From: Archaeoglobales archaeon
GTDB lineage: Archaea > Halobacteriota > Archaeoglobi > Archaeoglobales > Archaeoglobaceae
Direction of reading: 5' to 3'
Assembly (NCBI GenBank): GCA_003662995.1
Contig: QMZC01000011.1
Location: 1-38,548 of the forward strand
DNA length: 38,548 nucleotides
Of this stretch, positions 988-7,460 are shown piece after piece (position 1 is the stretch's first letter; the number at the start of each line of letters is the position of its first letter). The translations under genes were made by a program, and so were the position numbers. A model generated the notes under the pieces. That model did no database searches and was not told the DNA's origin. It was given only the letters and a program-made list of their open reading frames with translations.

Positions 988-3900
988 ATGAACGACAAAG
1001 CTGTTTCAGCCCTACTGGAATACCTGATTGTTATAGGAATACTATCGATGTTCGTTTTATTCTTAGGGTTAATACTAAACGCACAGTTTGCTGAGGGTGA
1101 GACTGGTGTGGTTTTACAAAATCAGTTTTCAGATGTTGCGTCTCAAGTTTCTTCGCAACTTGTTGACATATTTGCGATAACCCCTGAAAATGGTAGGGTT
1201 ACGGCTAAAATTTACATGCCAAAAAGGATTGGAGATTACGAGTATCACGTTGGATTTAGTAGTGTCAGCAATGAGACATACATATTTCTGCAATCAGACA
1301 AGGGAAATTTCAGAAAATACGTTGGTGTTGGTAAATTGGATTTAGACATGACTTTGCAAGGCTCAACTTTCAGTATGTCAAAAGAGCATGGATTAAATTA
1401 TACAAGAACATCCCACATTCTACCTACAGCCGTTTTAATGGTTTCCCCCTCAACCTTACTATTTACAAATCAAAGCAATGTTTGGAAGACGAACAACACT
1501 GCAAACTTCAGAATTTGTGAATCCTTTGCTGAGGGAGGATTTAACTGGACGTTAGAATTTGGAGATGGCAATAGCACTTCTGGGGATTCAAGTATTTGTC
1601 CAAGTGGCATAATTACCCATTATTATTATTGGAACACGACACCTTACAACGTTTCGGCTCATTGTAATGTTACTGATACTGCTAACATGACAGCAATCTG
1701 CCAAGCCAATCTAACGATAACGGACGAATTGGGATATAGCGATGCGTATTCGGTAAACATAACCTTCACAAAGGATGCGCTTGCTGTTAATCCAGATCTC
1801 TACATCGATAAGTACATAATACCCAAAGAAGCTTTGGTGGGACAGCCAGTAGAGATTCACATTTACATTCAGGGACAGGGCTTAAGAACTTCACCACGAG
1901 ACCTTAGCGTTGTTCACGTTATTGACAAGTCTGGAAGTATGAGGGATTATACACAATACATGAAAAGTCCAGATACTGGCACAAATTCCATTACTCCTAC
2001 AATTTGGGAGAGAAGCTTTAACATTAGTAACGAGAGTGGTATCTTAATTAAAGCATACACCAATGATACCAACAATATTATTCGCAATAAATGGTATCAA
2101 AATGTAGGTACATCATCAGATGCCGCTGAGGCAATTCAATTGTTTGTGAAAAGTCCAAGCACAGATTATGTTGAGGGAATAGAAACCATGTATCAAACCA
2201 GCCCATATATGGTTGGAAAACGTTTCTCGCAAAATAATCCTGAAAATGGAGAATGGAGGATCAGAGTTATAGGAGTATTTCCAGATGTGGATGGAGATTC
2301 AACAGATTTACATGTGGATGTCTATAAATATGACAGTGAAACTACAGAAGATGTTGACGATACATTTTACCTTGAATCTGGGAACGGATACCACTACAAT
2401 TACACATTCAACATAACATCGGATGTGGATCAATTTAGGTTTTCTGCCGAAAGTTATTCGTTTTGGTGGTTTTTATGGTTCCCCGACGACACCACCTTAA
2501 ACTTATACGATCCAAATAACAATTTGGTGTACTCAGACACTGACACTTCGCACACGATAACAGTTGAAAACCCAATTTCCGGACAGTGGACAGCAGAGTT
2601 TTCAAGTGACGGCTATAGAAGGGTAGACATAGCCTTAACAAAATATATCAAACAAAATCTAACACTCCTGCAACACTGGGACGACACTTTGACAAGCAAC
2701 TCAGACAACTACCAGTTTAATCTACCTACTGATTGTTTTAAGCTTAAGATAGAGACGGGCTCCAATTCAAACTTTTATTTATGGATTGATGGGCCCACTT
2801 CAAACCCTGATAGATTTTACACTTTGCCTTACGAGAACGCCAGCGACTCATCAACCATAAATCCGTCTGGAACCTACAGTTTTTATCTTGTACCTACCGC
2901 TCCAACTACAATCGATTATTATACAACTGTTTATGTTGCAAAAATCGATGGGGCTAAAATTGCAGCTATGAACTTTAATAGTATGATGGGTTCGGGAGAT
3001 TATGTTGGATTAGTAAGTTATTCCTCCTGTGCAAACATTGAGAACATTGAGAATTATCTCACTACAAACAAAGATACGGTAAATTCCTCAATTCAAAGTT
3101 TGTCACCTGGTGGTTGGACCAATATAGGGCATAGCCTTGAAAAAGCAAAACAAATTTTTGACAGTTATACGCCTCCAGACACAATTCCTGCTGTTATCCT
3201 AATGAGCGACGGAATTGCTAATTGTTGCAACCAGCACTGTGGTGGTTACGACGATTATTTCAGTCAATGTGGTTCGTATTGTGGTGACTCAAACAATTGT
3301 CTGAGTGAGGCTGAACAGTACGCCTTGGACATGGCAGACGCCCTCAAAAGCAATAATGTGACGATATATACAATCTGTTTTGGCGATGATGCAGACGAGG
3401 ATTTAATGGGTCAGATCTCAAGTGAGGGCTATTGTAGGGAGGCATTAACTGCTGAAGACCTCACTAGTATCTATGGACAAATTGCAACAGAACTAAGGGA
3501 CTTTGCTGCTAAAAATGTTACAGTGTCGGATGTAATTCCAAATGGTATAACTATTGATTACAGCGGAGAGATAAATATGACGTGCTGTGATCCTCTTGGT
3601 AGGGGAGATTGCCAAGACATAGAAGTCGATATAAGTGAGACTCCCAACGGAACACTACTTCAATGGAATATATCAAAGATCAACATAACTGAAGAGTGTG
3701 AAGTAACGATAACGGTCCATCCACATAGTAGTGGTGAAGCTATACCGATGGATGTAATCAATGTTAGTAATGTTACTTACCAACCCTATCCTGCCACCTG
3801 CACCGACCCAACAGACCCAACTTGCTACAAGGTGTTTGAACTTCCTGTCAGGTATCTGAAGTATTCTGCTGGAGAGGCATCAACTGTGGAATTGCAATGA
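988..3900 (+). CDS. Giant pilin-like surface protein with PKD-like and interrupted vWA domains
   Basis: The 970-residue protein starts M-N-D-K-A-V-S with a hydrophobic helix to about residue 32, a class III prepilin-like anchor. Residues about 150-260 hold a PKD-like domain (F-G-D-G, later H-Y-Y-Y-W). A von Willebrand A domain begins near 307 with the metal-site motif D313-K-S315-G-S317, but about 330 residues follow before the fold resumes near 652. The MIDAS threonine is then T711 (G-G-W-T-N) and the aspartate D741 (M-S-D-G). The insertion is beta-rich and contains segments resembling pre-peptidase C-terminal or P-domain modules (for example S-G-Q-W-T). A cysteine-rich loop follows D741. 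More than 25 N-x-S/T sequons are visible. There is no C-terminal membrane helix. The ribosome site is AGGTGGTAGT. It is likely an adhesin or tip protein on a pilus-like structure. Confidence 0.75.
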   Translation: MNDKAVSALLEYLIVIGILSMFVLFLGLILNAQFAEGETGVVLQNQFSDVASQVSSQLVDIFAITPENGRVTAKIYMPKRIGDYEYHVGFSSVSNETYIFLQSDKGNFRKYVGVGKLDLDMTLQGSTFSMSKEHGLNYTRTSHILPTAVLMVSPSTLLFTNQSNVWKTNNTANFRICESFAEGGFNWTLEFGDGNSTSGDSSICPSGIITHYYYWNTTPYNVSAHCNVTDTANMTAICQANLTITDELGYSDAYSVNITFTKDALAVNPDLYIDKYIIPKEALVGQPVEIHIYIQGQGLRTSPRDLSVVHVIDKSGSMRDYTQYMKSPDTGTNSITPTIWERSFNISNESGILIKAYTNDTNNIIRNKWYQNVGTSSDAAEAIQLFVKSPSTDYVEGIETMYQTSPYMVGKRFSQNNPENGEWRIRVIGVFPDVDGDSTDLHVDVYKYDSETTEDVDDTFYLESGNGYHYNYTFNITSDVDQFRFSAESYSFWWFLWFPDDTTLNLYDPNNNLVYSDTDTSHTITVENPISGQWTAEFSSDGYRRVDIALTKYIKQNLTLLQHWDDTLTSNSDNYQFNLPTDCFKLKIETGSNSNFYLWIDGPTSNPDRFYTLPYENASDSSTINPSGTYSFYLVPTAPTTIDYYTTVYVAKIDGAKIAAMNFNSMMGSGDYVGLVSYSSCANIENIENYLTTNKDTVNSSIQSLSPGGWTNIGHSLEKAKQIFDSYTPPDTIPAVILMSDGIANCCNQHCGGYDDYFSQCGSYCGDSNNCLSEAEQYALDMADALKSNNVTIYTICFGDDADEDLMGQISSEGYCREALTAEDLTSIYGQIATELRDFAAKNVTVSDVIPNGITIDYSGEINMTCCDPLGRGDCQDIEVDISETPNGTLLQWNISKINITEECEVTITVHPHSSGEAIPMDVINVSNVTYQPYPATCTDPTDPTCYKVFELPVRYLKYSAGEASTVELQ

Positions 3901-4622
3901 TGAACGTTAAAGCTGTTTCGGAAATCCTCGGAGGAGTATTGGTTTTGATGATAATATTGGTAACTATAGGAATAATATTTTCTACAGCTTTTCCAACCAT
4001 CGATGGTTTAAGAAAGGACATAAGGCTGAGGGGCATACAATCTCACATGCTTGATTTTAAGGAGTTGGTTGAGAGGTCCTTGGTTGGTGTTGAGCCATAC
4101 ATAATGCTGAAATTTCCAATTGCTGGTGGTAGCTTATACCTAGACAATTCAACAAAGATAGTTGTAAGAGTGTGGAATTCAACATCATCCTCATGGGATG
4201 AGATAATCAACGAAAGTATCGGCAGGTTTGAGTATTCTGAGGTTGGATGGTACTTTGTGTATGAAAATGGAGCTTTAATAGAAAATAAGGGCTATTCGAG
4301 GATGGTAACCTCTCCGAAGGTTTATACTGAGAACGAATCTGGCTATGCTTACTTGAGTTATCCAATCATATCATTCCAAGGAAATCTCTCAGTGGGTGGG
4401 AGTGGAATGCCTATTATCAAAATAAGGTTGGTAAACGTAACCGCTTACGATTTCAACAACACAAACGTGTCGATAACGTTAGAAACAAAAGATGCCCAGA
4501 GTTGGAAGAACTTTTTTGACTATATAAACGCAAATGCAACCTTGTCTGGAAACAGAGTAACGTTACAGGATTACTTTAATGAGACGCACATAACTGTTTA
4601 TAGAATAGAGGTGAGTCTATGA
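3897..4622 (+). CDS. Type IV pilin-like protein
   Basis: About 240 residues with N-terminus M-N-V-K-A-V-S-E-I-L-G-G and a hydrophobic helix. This is very close to the K-A-V-S-P-V-I consensus of euryarchaeal pilins, including the glutamate five residues after the presumed cleavage site. The body is a beta-rich extracellular domain with sequons and a G-N-L-S-V-G-G-S-G motif that is shared with the next protein as G-N-L-S-I-S-G-S-G. Two adjacent ATGs exist. The first (3897) overlaps the upstream stop as ATGA, and the second (3900) gives the M-N-x-K-A pattern. The 3' end overlaps the next start as ATGA. It is probably a structural or minor pilin paralogous to the following gene. Confidence 0.7.
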   Translation: MMNVKAVSEILGGVLVLMIILVTIGIIFSTAFPTIDGLRKDIRLRGIQSHMLDFKELVERSLVGVEPYIMLKFPIAGGSLYLDNSTKIVVRVWNSTSSSWDEIINESIGRFEYSEVGWYFVYENGALIENKGYSRMVTSPKVYTENESGYAYLSYPIISFQGNLSVGGSGMPIIKIRLVNVTAYDFNNTNVSITLETKDAQSWKNFFDYINANATLSGNRVTLQDYFNETHITVYRIEVSL

Positions 4623-5386
4623 ATTCCAAGGCTGTTTCAGAGGTGCTGAGCTACGTATTTGTTTTCTCAATAATTGTCGTCACGGTTTCAATTGTGTATA
4701 CTCAGGTAAACAACATAATTGAGGATACAAAGGCTAAATACCAACTTGAAGGTTTAAGACAGAGCTTTAAAAGAATACAGAACGTAATATACTTGGTTAC
4801 GTACGGTAAAGCCCCACAACAGGCTTTGGACGTTGAATTACAAGGAGGTAGCATGTGGATAGAAAATTCTTCATTTTTGACAATCAGATTTGACGGTATT
4901 AAAAAGTATGAAGACTACGTTAACTCATTAAACTATGAATTTGAAAATGAGAGAATAAGTTATGAAAATGGTGGTGTTTGGGAAGAATATTACGGTAATC
5001 AAAACATTATATCCAACCCAAGAATTTTTTTGGTGTATAAAGAAGTTGAGAATAAAACTCTGCTAATAGTAATAGTAACAAAAATTGTTGGAAATCTCTC
5101 AATTTCGGGATCTGGTACAATTAAATTGAAAATCATGCAATCAAACAAAACGTTCTTCAGTAGTGAAGAAGATGGGAGTCCTCATGAGGTTGAAATTAAC
5201 ATTTCTTCGTACTACAACGATGCATGGTTTGACTTTTTTGATAGCAAATTAAGGTCTCAGCACAGAAATCCTGCTGGAATAGATGTGAGCAGTGATAGTT
5301 CAAAGGTAATAGCAAGGATAACTTGTGATAAATTCATACTTACAACTTTCAACGTGAGAATTGAGGGAGTTAGCAACGTGATTTAA
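4619..5386 (+). CDS. Type IV pilin-like protein, last gene of the operon
   Basis: The 255-residue protein begins M-N-S-K-A-V-S-E-V-L and a hydrophobic helix, again a prepilin-like leader with cleavage expected after K-A. The extracellular part is paralogous in layout to the preceding protein (sequon-bearing beta-rich domain, G-N-L-S-I-S-G-S-G near residue 162, an aspartate- and phenylalanine-rich segment near 200). ATGA overlap couples it to the preceding gene. The gene converges on the ModE-like regulator, with an AT-rich gap of about 105 bases holding T-rich stretches that probably terminate this operon. It is likely a pilin subunit. No assembly ATPase or platform protein is inside the window, so these would have to be encoded upstream or elsewhere. 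Confidence 0.7.
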   Translation: MNSKAVSEVLSYVFVFSIIVVTVSIVYTQVNNIIEDTKAKYQLEGLRQSFKRIQNVIYLVTYGKAPQQALDVELQGGSMWIENSSFLTIRFDGIKKYEDYVNSLNYEFENERISYENGGVWEEYYGNQNIISNPRIFLVYKEVENKTLLIVIVTKIVGNLSISGSGTIKLKIMQSNKTFFSSEEDGSPHEVEINISSYYNDAWFDFFDSKLRSQHRNPAGIDVSSDSSKVIARITCDKFILTTFNVRIEGVSNVI

Positions 5387-5491: not shown

Positions 5492-5902
5492 TTACTTTAA
5501 ACGCATCACAATAACCTTGTCCCCCCTCTTCAAATCCACTTCAGAATCAAACTTTATTGTAACATTGTTTCTACGAATCTCCTCAACAACTCCCCTACCA
5601 AACTCTTGATTTTTCATCTTTTCAATCAATCCGAAGTATATCTCTAAAATTTCTTCGCCTATGCCAGTTAAAGTTGTCTTTCCACCTTCTTTACCTCCTC
5701 TCTCCCTTTTAACTATTTTTTTACCCAATGCCTGCTCAATCTTGTTTAAGTAATTCCAGACGTATTTGTACGACATGTTCAGACTTTTCGCAGCCTTCGA
5801 GATCGATCCCTGCTCTTTAATAGCCTTTAGAATATCCGCTCCACCCTTACCAATAACGTGTTTACCATCCTTTTCAATCCATACTTTAAATTTAACTTCC
5901 AT
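5492..5902 (-). CDS. ModE-like winged-helix regulator (molybdate/tungstate type, DNA-binding part)
   Basis: The 136-residue protein carries the ModE/LysR-type N-terminal winged helix. The order is I-L-K-A-I-K-E-Q-G-S-I-S-K-A-A, then M-S-Y-K-Y-V-W-N-Y-L (recognition helix, about 45-55), then the wing R-G-G-K-E-G-G-K-T-T-L-T-G. The family senses or accompanies molybdate and tungstate use. A full ModE adds a pair of Mop-type oxyanion-binding domains. Here only about 45 residues follow, with a V-D-L-K-R-G-D-K-V-I-V-M ending that could be a minimal barrel, so direct ligand binding is uncertain. It is the most downstream of three minus-strand regulators. The gap of about 35 bases to the next upstream gene may allow co-transcription. 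Confidence 0.8.
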   Translation of the reverse strand: MEVKFKVWIEKDGKHVIGKGGADILKAIKEQGSISKAAKSLNMSYKYVWNYLNKIEQALGKKIVKRERGGKEGGKTTLTGIGEEILEIYFGLIEKMKNQEFGRGVVEEIRRNNVTIKFDSEVDLKRGDKVIVMRLK

Positions 5903-5937: not shown

Positions 5938-6852
5938 CTAAAGAATTTCGCCAATTTCGTTAAATCTCTCATTTTTCAGTTTATTTAATTTGACTTCTGA
6001 GCTTGCAGTAATAATGACAGCAGTTGCGGGGCAACCTTTTGCATTTTTTGTGTTCATCTCACACCTAACTTTGCCTCCTGCAATGGATGCTGCATAACTT
6101 ACAACTTCCCACACTCCACCGCTTTTAACCGGAAATATCGAGTTAATTTTCCCTTTTTTAACCATTTCCGCCAATTCAATAACCGTTTCTACACTAACAG
6201 TCAAACTTCTGTTATTTAAAAGCTCTTCTCCGCTCAACACTTCTCCAATCAAATATATCTTATCTCCCCTCTGAGGTATGTTCTTTATTGATAAATCTCT
6301 TAACCCTACTGTTGAGCAACTGATCGAAGTGCCATTTAAATCAAAAAAAGGCTCATGACTTGTTAAGATGACTTTTGCTTTACAGTATCTCTCCACCTCC
6401 TTTTTCAACAATTTTAAAAATTTTAAGGAGTAATCCAATGTGTTTGAGGTTGATACCATTATGGCGAGAGGTTCAACGAATCTGCAAATGGCTTCAATTA
6501 ATATCTGTTTAGCCATTATCTCTGCCACATCATCCAATTTTATTTTGAGTCTATCTTCCTCAAGCTCCCCAATTCCGCTGTACGAAGTTAAAAAAATAGT
6601 GATGGACGACATATTGCCCAAATCAACGTTTACAGCGTTTCTCTCCTCATAAACATCTACGTTTGTAATTATGGATGGTTTGAAGTAAAAGCCCAAATTC
6701 TCAAGCAGCATGAGGTATATCGTCAGAGATTGCCTAATTAGTTCAGACCTCGAGATTAAAAGTTTTGATGAAATGCCATCCAATTTCCTTACAATTTCCT
6801 CATCCAGCCTTAAATTTACAATTTTCCCACTCTTACTTTTTTTGCTCTTCAT
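5938..6852 (-). CDS. Ribbon-helix-helix regulator fused to a PurM/AIR-synthase-like domain
   Basis: Residues about 11-52 form a CopG-type ribbon-helix-helix (I-V-N-L-R-L-D-E-E-I, then S-R-S-E-L-I-R-Q-S-L). The remaining 250 residues are much longer than a usual RHH regulator. Residues about 90-215 resemble the N-terminal half of PurM-superfamily proteins (I-K-L-D-D-V-A-E-I-M-A, E-P-L-A-I-M-V-S, R-G-D-K-I-Y-L-I-G). Residues about 222-285 resemble the C-terminal half (V-I-E-L-A-E, K-I-N-S-I-F-P-V-K-S-G-G-V, A-A-S-I-A-G-G-K-V). The match is by motif pattern only. If right, DNA binding is linked to a nucleotide- or metabolite-binding fold. A cysteine cluster (C264, C274) lies in the last third. 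It sits between ModE-like and DtxR-like genes. The target is unknown. Confidence 0.6.
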   Translation of the reverse strand: MKSKKSKSGKIVNLRLDEEIVRKLDGISSKLLISRSELIRQSLTIYLMLLENLGFYFKPSIITNVDVYEERNAVNVDLGNMSSITIFLTSYSGIGELEEDRLKIKLDDVAEIMAKQILIEAICRFVEPLAIMVSTSNTLDYSLKFLKLLKKEVERYCKAKVILTSHEPFFDLNGTSISCSTVGLRDLSIKNIPQRGDKIYLIGEVLSGEELLNNRSLTVSVETVIELAEMVKKGKINSIFPVKSGGVWEVVSYAASIAGGKVRCEMNTKNAKGCPATAVIITASSEVKLNKLKNERFNEIGEIL

Positions 6853-6881: not shown

Positions 6882-7460
6882 TCAATCGACCCTTTCAACG
6901 AGAATCTTTGATTTTATCTTTTCTTCAACATCAAATCTCTCCCCTTCTACATCGATGTAATCTTTTCCAACATCCAAGATTTTTCCAGGTCTGATTCCCA
7001 TTTCTTCAACACCTTTGGGAGCAATGATAACTCTGTATCTTCCAGATTTCGTGTCAGATAGCTTCATCGTTTTAAAATTGCACTCTTCGCAAATGTCACA
7101 TTCAGATGAGATCAATTCACACACCTTTTCCACAACCTCATCGCTTACGTGATGCTCCAGTTCACAACTCAACTTTTTAGCCTCCTCCTCATCAACACCA
7201 AGAAAATCTCTGAAAAATCTTATGAATATCCGATAGTACTTTTTAATCCTCTTTGCCACCTCCTCACCCTTTGGTGTTAGAGTAGCACCATAGTACGGCT
7301 GATATTCTATGTAACCTCTATCACTAAGCTTTGACAGCATTTCTGTAACACTTGAAGGCTTTATGTTGAGTTTTTTCGCCAAATCGCTAGTCTTAGCTAC
7401 CCTTTTCTCAATCTCCTGAATATCGTAGATTGCTTCAAGGTATTCCTCAACTCTCTCCAC
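6882..7460 (-). CDS. DtxR/MntR-family metal-dependent repressor with FeoA-like domain
   Basis: The 192-residue protein has the DtxR order: winged helix (residues about 1-70, with recognition segment K-P-S-S-V-T-E-M-L-S-K-L), a dimerisation and metal-binding domain with C99-E-L-E102-H103, and a C-terminal SH3/FeoA-like domain (about 135-192). The ligand set C/E/H fits an iron or manganese sensor. Archaeoglobus fulgidus MDR1 belongs to this family. A C-D-I-C-E-E-C cluster at 121-127 just before the FeoA-like domain is an extra potential metal site. The start is a GTG at 7460, only a few tens of bases from the divergent methyltransferase start, so one short promoter region serves both directions and may be self-controlled. 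Confidence 0.85.
   Translation of the reverse strand: MERVEEYLEAIYDIQEIEKRVAKTSDLAKKLNIKPSSVTEMLSKLSDRGYIEYQPYYGATLTPKGEEVAKRIKKYYRIFIRFFRDFLGVDEEEAKKLSCELEHHVSDEVVEKVCELISSECDICEECNFKTMKLSDTKSGRYRVIIAPKGVEEMGIRPGKILDVGKDYIDVEGERFDVEEKIKSKILVERVD

Follow-up and report, generated by a model that had tools for sequence, protein, structure and literature searches.

A probable and hitherto unrecognised regulator of vitamin B12-type cofactors in archaea that joins a ribbon-helix-helix domain to a CblS-type domain

Introduction

RbkR, which joins an HTH domain to a riboflavin kinase, is listed as a bifunctional gene regulator and enzyme (PMC8305020). RbkR and ThiR (PMC8305020, PMC10746257) share a logic in which an enzyme domain from a vitamin pathway is coupled to a DNA-binding domain that controls the genes of the same vitamin. 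For cobalamin, a predicted archaeal regulon, CblR, is listed for Pyrococcus furiosus with its regulator given as unknown (PMC10746257). NikR, which is found in archaea, has an N-terminal ribbon-helix-helix (RHH) domain of about 50 aa and a C-terminal ligand-binding domain, in its case an ACT domain with a nickel site. The sensor domain of ThiR is ThiN. CblS is described as an alpha-ribazole kinase (Gray and Escalante-Semerena 2010, as cited in PMC6722938 and PMC5064896), and a CblT-CblS-CobS-CobC operon has been reported on plasmid pMF1298-5 (PMC6722938).

Here we analyse a gene in a 38,548-nt stretch of DNA from an Archaeoglobales archaeon (contig QMZC01000011.1; hereafter the window), the product of which, RHH-CblS, probably regulates vitamin B12-type cofactors in archaea and has so far gone unrecognised in this role. 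We describe its domain make-up, kinship to CblS, operator and target genes computationally, and infer direct binding, the ligand and the sign of regulation. The protein has the domain order of NikR, but its sensor belongs to the PurM superfamily and resembles CblS rather than ACT, and its operator and regulon differ. It shares the logic of RbkR and ThiR without being homologous to them: an RHH domain stands where RbkR has HTH, a CblS/PurM fold where RbkR has riboflavin kinase, and RbkR is listed as an active enzyme whereas RHH-CblS looks dead. As with CblR, the proposed role in archaeal cobalamin regulation comes from comparative genomics, here with a concrete protein, operator and regulon proposed for archaeal cobamide regulation. 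If the proposal is correct, a PurM/CblS fold has been turned into a transcription sensor, in parallel to RbkR for riboflavin, and shared regulation would place the orphan RiPP CbpA-CbpB peptide in cobamide metabolism. A search for RHH-PurM, RHH-AIR synthase or RHH-CblS fusions in a literature collection lacking most subscription journals found none.

Results

A conserved gene with an N-terminal RHH domain

The gene and its two domains are as follows.

5938..6852, minus strand: RHH-CblS regulator, whole gene, 304 aa plus stop codon (ORF, orthologues and homologues)
6700..6822, minus strand: ribbon-helix-helix DNA-binding domain, about residues 11-51 (Pfam RHH_1 and AlphaFold2 helices)
5941..6654, minus strand: CblS-type (PurM superfamily) sensor domain, residues 67-304 (Foldseek and hhalign)

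The 304-aa ORF is a real, conserved gene and not a chance product, because 22 of 55 Archaeoglobaceae genomes encode an orthologue with this architecture, at 46-72% identity. Beyond this family, full-length RHH-CblS proteins were found in one family of the same order (f2) and in four other families of the phylum (f7, f9, f12 and f17), and methyl-coenzyme M reductase (MCR) genes are present in the tested genomes of these families. Genes were called with a simple ORF script, and many of the comparison genomes are probably metagenome-assembled.

The N-terminal domain matched Pfam RHH_1 at residues 12-45 (E 2.4e-4), exceeding the Pfam cut-off, and the AlphaFold2 model places helices at residues 18-31 and 35-53, with the first strand region modelled at low confidence. 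The strand motif VNLRL resembles VNIRL of the f7 family. The profile match and the two modelled helices assign the domain to the RHH (CopG/MetJ/Arc) superfamily.

A sensor domain related to CblS

When the window protein was searched by sequence against Pfam, NCBIfam and the PDB, the RHH domain alone was detected; none of the PurM/AIRS models in Pfam and NCBIfam matched it, nor did the selD model of NCBIfam. We modelled the protein with AlphaFold2 from a 22-row orthologue alignment (A1), which gave a mean pLDDT of 81 and a pTM of 0.74. When this model was compared with the PDB by Foldseek, all 50 of the 50 matches listed were to the PurM superfamily (ThiL, SelD, HypE, PurL and PurM), with a best E of 1.4e-12, a probability of 1.00 and TM values of 0.38-0.57 among the matches listed. 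By this comparison the model has the two-subdomain fold of the PurM/AIR synthase superfamily.

A stand-alone 234-aa AIRS protein that adjoins an ECF-transporter S component was found by profile search in a genome of the same order (G056). Searched over the phylum, its best matches were the C-terminal domains of RHH proteins, which aligned at nearly full length (E down to 9e-35); other AIRS proteins matched over about residues 12-120 alone (1e-9 to 1e-7), and the window protein matched over residues 11-224 (E 4.8e-9). In a plasmid collection the same query matched the pMF1298-5 ORF between an ECF S component and cobS. Two further matches serve as CblS references: the Listeria ORF precedes cobU-cobS-cobC, and the Cytobacillus ORF comes after cob genes and an ECF S component. 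Judged by gene position and the cited descriptions, the family formed by the G056, pMF1298-5, Listeria and Cytobacillus proteins is CblS.

We then compared profiles with hhalign. The Archaeoglobi sensor domain matched the CblS profile with a probability of 98.8-98.9% (E 5.5e-17 to 1.4e-17) in an alignment spanning the whole sensor domain and the whole of CblS (212-223 columns), and the sensor domains of other families matched CblS with E down to 3.4e-38. The ThiL, PurM, PurL, HypE and sll0787-like profiles all gave the Archaeoglobi domain probabilities below 7%, and nothing among the other AIRS families compared approached its full-length similarity to CblS. On profile evidence, the sensor is of the short CblS type within the PurM superfamily and not of the PurM, ThiL, PurL or HypE type. 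It shares with CblS the GGIG-x-K-x2-D motif region and the short C-terminal subdomain. RHH-CblS differs from CblS in carrying an RHH domain, in adjoining or controlling cobT rather than replacing CobT, and in having no ECF S partner gene.

A preliminary description of this locus had proposed an unusual architecture in which a CopG-type N-terminal domain is joined to a PurM-superfamily fold, and Pfam, AlphaFold2 and Foldseek support it on both counts. Its fold call is correct because the Foldseek matches listed all belong to the PurM superfamily, with no other fold among them, and four of the motifs that it named (D-D-V-A-E-I-M-A, E-P-L-A-I-M-V-S, G-D-K-I-Y-L-I-G and P-V-K-S-G-G-V) are present as given. 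Its ORF bounds were exact, the minus strand being a detail that it omitted. The profile-profile comparison that it suggested gave below 7% for PurM, ThiL and HypE, and 98.9% for another member of the superfamily, CblS; with CblS matching at E 1.4e-17 and PurM, ThiL, PurL and HypE below 7%, its placing of the domain within the superfamily proves too general or wrong.

Loss of CblS-invariant residues

Three sites in the sensor domain correspond to conserved elements of CblS.

6553..6576, minus strand: GIGELEED motif region, residues 93-100, equivalent of CblS GGIG-x-K-x2-D, with G93, G95 and D100 kept
6352..6354, minus strand: E167, of the CblS G-S-T-E-E-N motif, kept in all aligned RHH-CblS proteins
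6586..6588, minus strand: codon of T89, at the position of invariant Asp24 in CblS

We aligned 39 RHH-CblS proteins with four CblS proteins, so that the 30 residues counted as CblS-invariant rest on four sequences. Asp24 of CblS is lost in 39 of the 39 RHH-CblS proteins, which suggests a dead kinase, and Glu55 has become Lys in every protein of f7, f9, f17 and f12. In Archaeoglobi, Gly28, Gly30, Asp35, Glu55 and Glu100 (CblS numbering) are kept and Arg50 and Asn102 are mostly lost. The window protein lacks Asp24, Arg50 and Asn102 in the alignment and retains 14 of the 30 invariant residues, and because of these losses we class it as having a CblS-derived domain and not as a CblS enzyme. The f7-type proteins keep about 23 of the 30, including GHTEEN and GGIG-x-K-x2-D. 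From this pattern we infer a non-catalytic sensor in which part of the CblS pocket is retained; as 14 of 30 residues are kept in the window protein, the sensor ligand in Archaeoglobi may have changed.

Gene neighbourhoods

Two genes for putative DNA-binding proteins flank the RHH-CblS gene in the window.

6882..7460, minus strand: DtxR/MntR-like regulator gene, upstream of the RHH-CblS gene with a 29-bp gap
5492..5902, minus strand: ModE-type DNA-binding protein gene, downstream with a 35-bp gap (ModE_repress E 1.9e-24, below the model cut-off)

The DtxR/MntR-like gene is possibly co-transcribed with the RHH-CblS gene in the window. Both flanking genes are found in the congener G021 as well, and by synteny the DtxR/MntR-like gene is no conserved partner. 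Archaeoglobus has the RHH-CblS gene followed by genes for a precorrin-2 dehydrogenase (CysG N-terminal type), a fused siroheme decarboxylase and tRNA thiolation, and in Geoglobus and Ferroglobus fdhD is divergent to it. Divergent to the RHH-CblS gene in f7 and f9 are, in varying combinations, cbpB (TIGR04163), cobT (TIGR03160), trpD-like and zinc-dehydrogenase genes, and in f12 cobQ and cbiA are near it. The DtxR/ModE setting is therefore local, because the cobamide/tetrapyrrole theme alone recurs across families. A link to molybdenum or formate dehydrogenase through DtxR, FdhD, FmdE and ModE neighbours was dropped, as these neighbours differ between genera; the cobamide-regulator explanation does not account for the FdhD, DtxR and ModE neighbours.

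The preliminary description had read a metal-cofactor link from the DtxR-like and ModE-like genes and proposed synteny as a check; the neighbourhood varies between genera and does not provide that basis. In the broad sense the link survives, since cobamides contain cobalt, but it rests instead on the operators at cobT and cbpAB described below and on the cob gene neighbours in other families.

Further loci were noted in passing. In f7 (L083, L092, L095 and L099), genes for a trpD-like phosphoribosyltransferase and a zinc dehydrogenase recur beside cobT or the RHH-CblS gene and may be part of lower-ligand synthesis. A different RHH protein of about 180-188 aa, with a C-terminal domain of its own, lies beside TauE/SafE-like permease genes in Archaeoglobaceae (L054, L049 and L051). 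In the window, the region at 3897-5386 and 988-3900 has two ORFs with pilin-like N-terminal hydrophobic segments beside a protein of 970 aa in which a von Willebrand A-like stretch can be made out by eye, and it is a possible archaeal pilus or adhesion cluster.

A candidate operator that tracks the regulator

A near-palindrome upstream of the RHH-CblS genes of f7/f9, Archaeoglobus and f2 yielded the candidate operator GTAWTAC-N4-GTAWTAC. Scanning 630 kb of context with the loose consensus gave 25 places with at most one mismatch, of which 21 are at RHH-CblS genes (including two loci where the ORF script had missed the gene) and one is before cbpA, a result that is partly circular because the consensus was drawn from the same upstream regions; shuffled context gave 1-7 strand hits.

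Scans of whole genomes next located the motif before cobT, and the comparisons that follow, at cobT, at cbpA-cbpB and in the genome of the window, are independent of the regions that gave the consensus. We examined the cobT promoter in all Archaeoglobaceae genomes from which cobT could be extracted. An operator with at most two mismatches lies 54-59 nt before the start in 19 of 20 genomes with the regulator versus 0 of 23 without it (Fisher 2.5e-11, phylogeny ignored; the 23 include G018, with a truncated cobT locus), and in the latter the best upstream match has 3-6 mismatches. In the one exception, G052, the operator is at cbpA only. Most of the remaining strong sites precede cbpA-cbpB. There the operator is present in 13 of 13 genomes that carry the regulator and in 0 of 14 that lack it (Fisher 5e-8, kinship ignored), and because the genomes are related both Fisher values overstate independence. 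Genus g13 shows the contrast among close relatives: regulator and cbpA operator are both present in G050 and G052 and both absent from G049, G051, G053 and G054, the CbpA peptides being very similar. In the 2.6-Mb genome of the window, from which cbpB is absent, the tight motif (at most one mismatch) has one match, at the cobT promoter (G000 C96:8296-8313), with the sequence GTAATAATACTGTAATAC.

The 32 aligned cobT and cbpA sites read T-GTAWTAC-N4-GTAWTAC-AAA. The predicted operator consists of two 7-bp boxes, each palindromic, 11 bp (one helical turn) apart. RHH proteins bind tandem palindromic boxes one helical turn apart, with Arc and MetJ as precedents, and by this analogy the spacing fits two RHH dimers on one helix face. 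At cobT and cbpAB the operators are directly upstream of the BRE/TATA region; their end is separated by roughly 10-15 nt from a TATA-like element and by about 40 nt from the start codon. The own-gene operators of Archaeoglobus, f2, f7 and f9 lie at the start codon or immediately ahead of it, or else follow a TATA-like element; none was seen in the regions upstream of the RHH-CblS genes of the window, Geoglobus, Ferroglobus, f17 and f12.

Several other signals were set aside. The looser pattern GYAWTNCN4GNAWTRC gave extra sites that look like chance. Other one-mismatch matches (G001 at 1236967, G024 at 1488541, G021 C117 and C208) and an exact match in G009, a genome without the regulator, are near unrelated genes. 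Presence of CobT is uninformative, as it is found in most Archaeoglobaceae genomes; cbpB occurs in 27 of 55 genomes, of which 13 have the regulator and 14 lack it, so it is the operator and not the gene that tracks the regulator.

The CbpA-CbpB genes

CbpB is the radical-SAM maturase of the 'cobo_pep' RiPP (TIGR04163). In Archaeoglobi a short ORF of about 26-27 aa lies between operator and cbpB (for example MAYSYMFECEVGGGLTHYVMPGEESPF), and its sole NCBIfam match is CbpA (TIGR04164), below the curated cut-off. The target genes here are thus members of the CbpA-CbpB (TIGR04164/TIGR04163) RiPP system, with the CbpA match below that cut-off; model names and the literature searched gave no regulator for this system. 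CbpA precursor ORFs of about 26-47 aa with the core GGLTHY...SPF occupy the operator-to-cbpB interval in Archaeoglobi, f7 and f9 (L233:1894-2060, L239, L241, L183, L073, L096 and others), and they score below the TIGR04164 cut-off and may escape annotation. In G003 the operator lies between cbpA-cbpB and a divergent ModE-like gene (L239:2149-2538) resembling the one at window 5492-5902, and this ModE-like gene may be in the same regulon.

Discussion

We consider it likely that RHH-CblS is a metabolite-responsive regulator of the cobamide (vitamin B12) nucleotide-loop pathway that acts through a CblS-derived sensor. Its RHH dimers would bind the paired GTAWTAC boxes, 11 bp apart, at the cobT promoter in the window's genome and, in relatives, also at the cbpA-cbpB promoter and, in several lineages, at the regulator's own gene. 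As a CblS descendant, the C-terminal domain would bind alpha-ribazole, alpha-ribazole phosphate or a close analogue and couple the level of this metabolite to DNA binding; binding without phosphorylation is most likely because CblS-invariant residues are lost. Chances seem about even that the signal is alpha-ribazole or its phosphate, and otherwise it would be another lower-ligand nucleoside or nucleotide. The product of CobT, alpha-ribazole 5'-phosphate, is also the product of CblS, and because of this shared product the ancestry of the sensor and the identity of its target, which are independent lines of evidence, point to the same metabolite.

The operators at cobT and cbpAB have an activator-like position and those at the regulator's own promoters a repressor-like one. 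Activation of cobT and cbpAB with autorepression is favoured because of these positions relative to BRE/TATA and the own gene start, and is somewhat more probable than not. Archaeal activators act directly upstream of BRE, SurR and Ptr2 being examples that work from an upstream position. In Pyrococcus furiosus, the promoters regulated by CopR likewise have their motif directly upstream of BRE (PMC7830388). Alternatively, the same regulator might repress the same targets at every site, blocking TFB/TBP at cobT and cbpAB until its ligand releases it, or loading as a co-repressor complex with that ligand. Many RHH proteins are repressors, the own-gene operators are at the gene start, and an operator that abuts the BRE region could hinder TFB. 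However, in the 32 aligned cobT/cbpA promoters the operator is upstream of, not on, the TATA-like element, and the CopR, SurR and Ptr2 arrangements also speak against repression throughout, which we regard as possible but doubtful. A working alpha-ribazole kinase that doubles as a transcription regulator, as in RbkR and NadR, is unlikely: the f7-type proteins do retain about 23 of 30 invariant residues, but the losses of Asp24, Glu55, Arg50 and Asn102 described above argue against catalysis, and CobT, which is present in f7/f9 and Archaeoglobi, gives alpha-ribazole phosphate directly.

It is also possible in principle that another co-occurring factor reads the operator, the RHH-CblS gene being a target or a hitch-hiker. 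DtxR-like and ModE-like genes adjoin RHH-CblS in some genomes and binding by RHH-CblS is a prediction, but the operator follows the RHH-CblS gene in its distribution at two unrelated promoters, occurs at that gene itself in Archaeoglobus, f2, f7 and f9, and has the tandem palindromic boxes one helical turn apart that suit RHH binding; we judge such a factor quite improbable. A sensor of purine, thiamin, selenium or hydrogenase-maturation metabolites, tied to metals through DtxR and ModE, would agree with the PurM-superfamily fold and with the adjacent genes in the window and G021. Nevertheless, the profile comparison identifies CblS and rejects ThiL, HypE, PurM and PurL, the neighbours differ among genera and the operators point to cobT and cbpAB, which makes this reading very unlikely indeed. 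On balance, we favour the view that RHH-CblS represents an unrecognised archaeal transcription factor family that arose from an inactivated alpha-ribazole kinase, serves as a cobamide regulator in Archaeoglobi and several MCR-bearing lineages, and co-regulates CbpA-CbpB with cobT.

A separate observation concerns the stand-alone CblS-like protein of G056, a genome that also encodes RHH-CblS: at L053:974-2169 the gene for an archaeal ECF S component is followed by the gene for this protein, and the two are a possible alpha-ribazole salvage pair.
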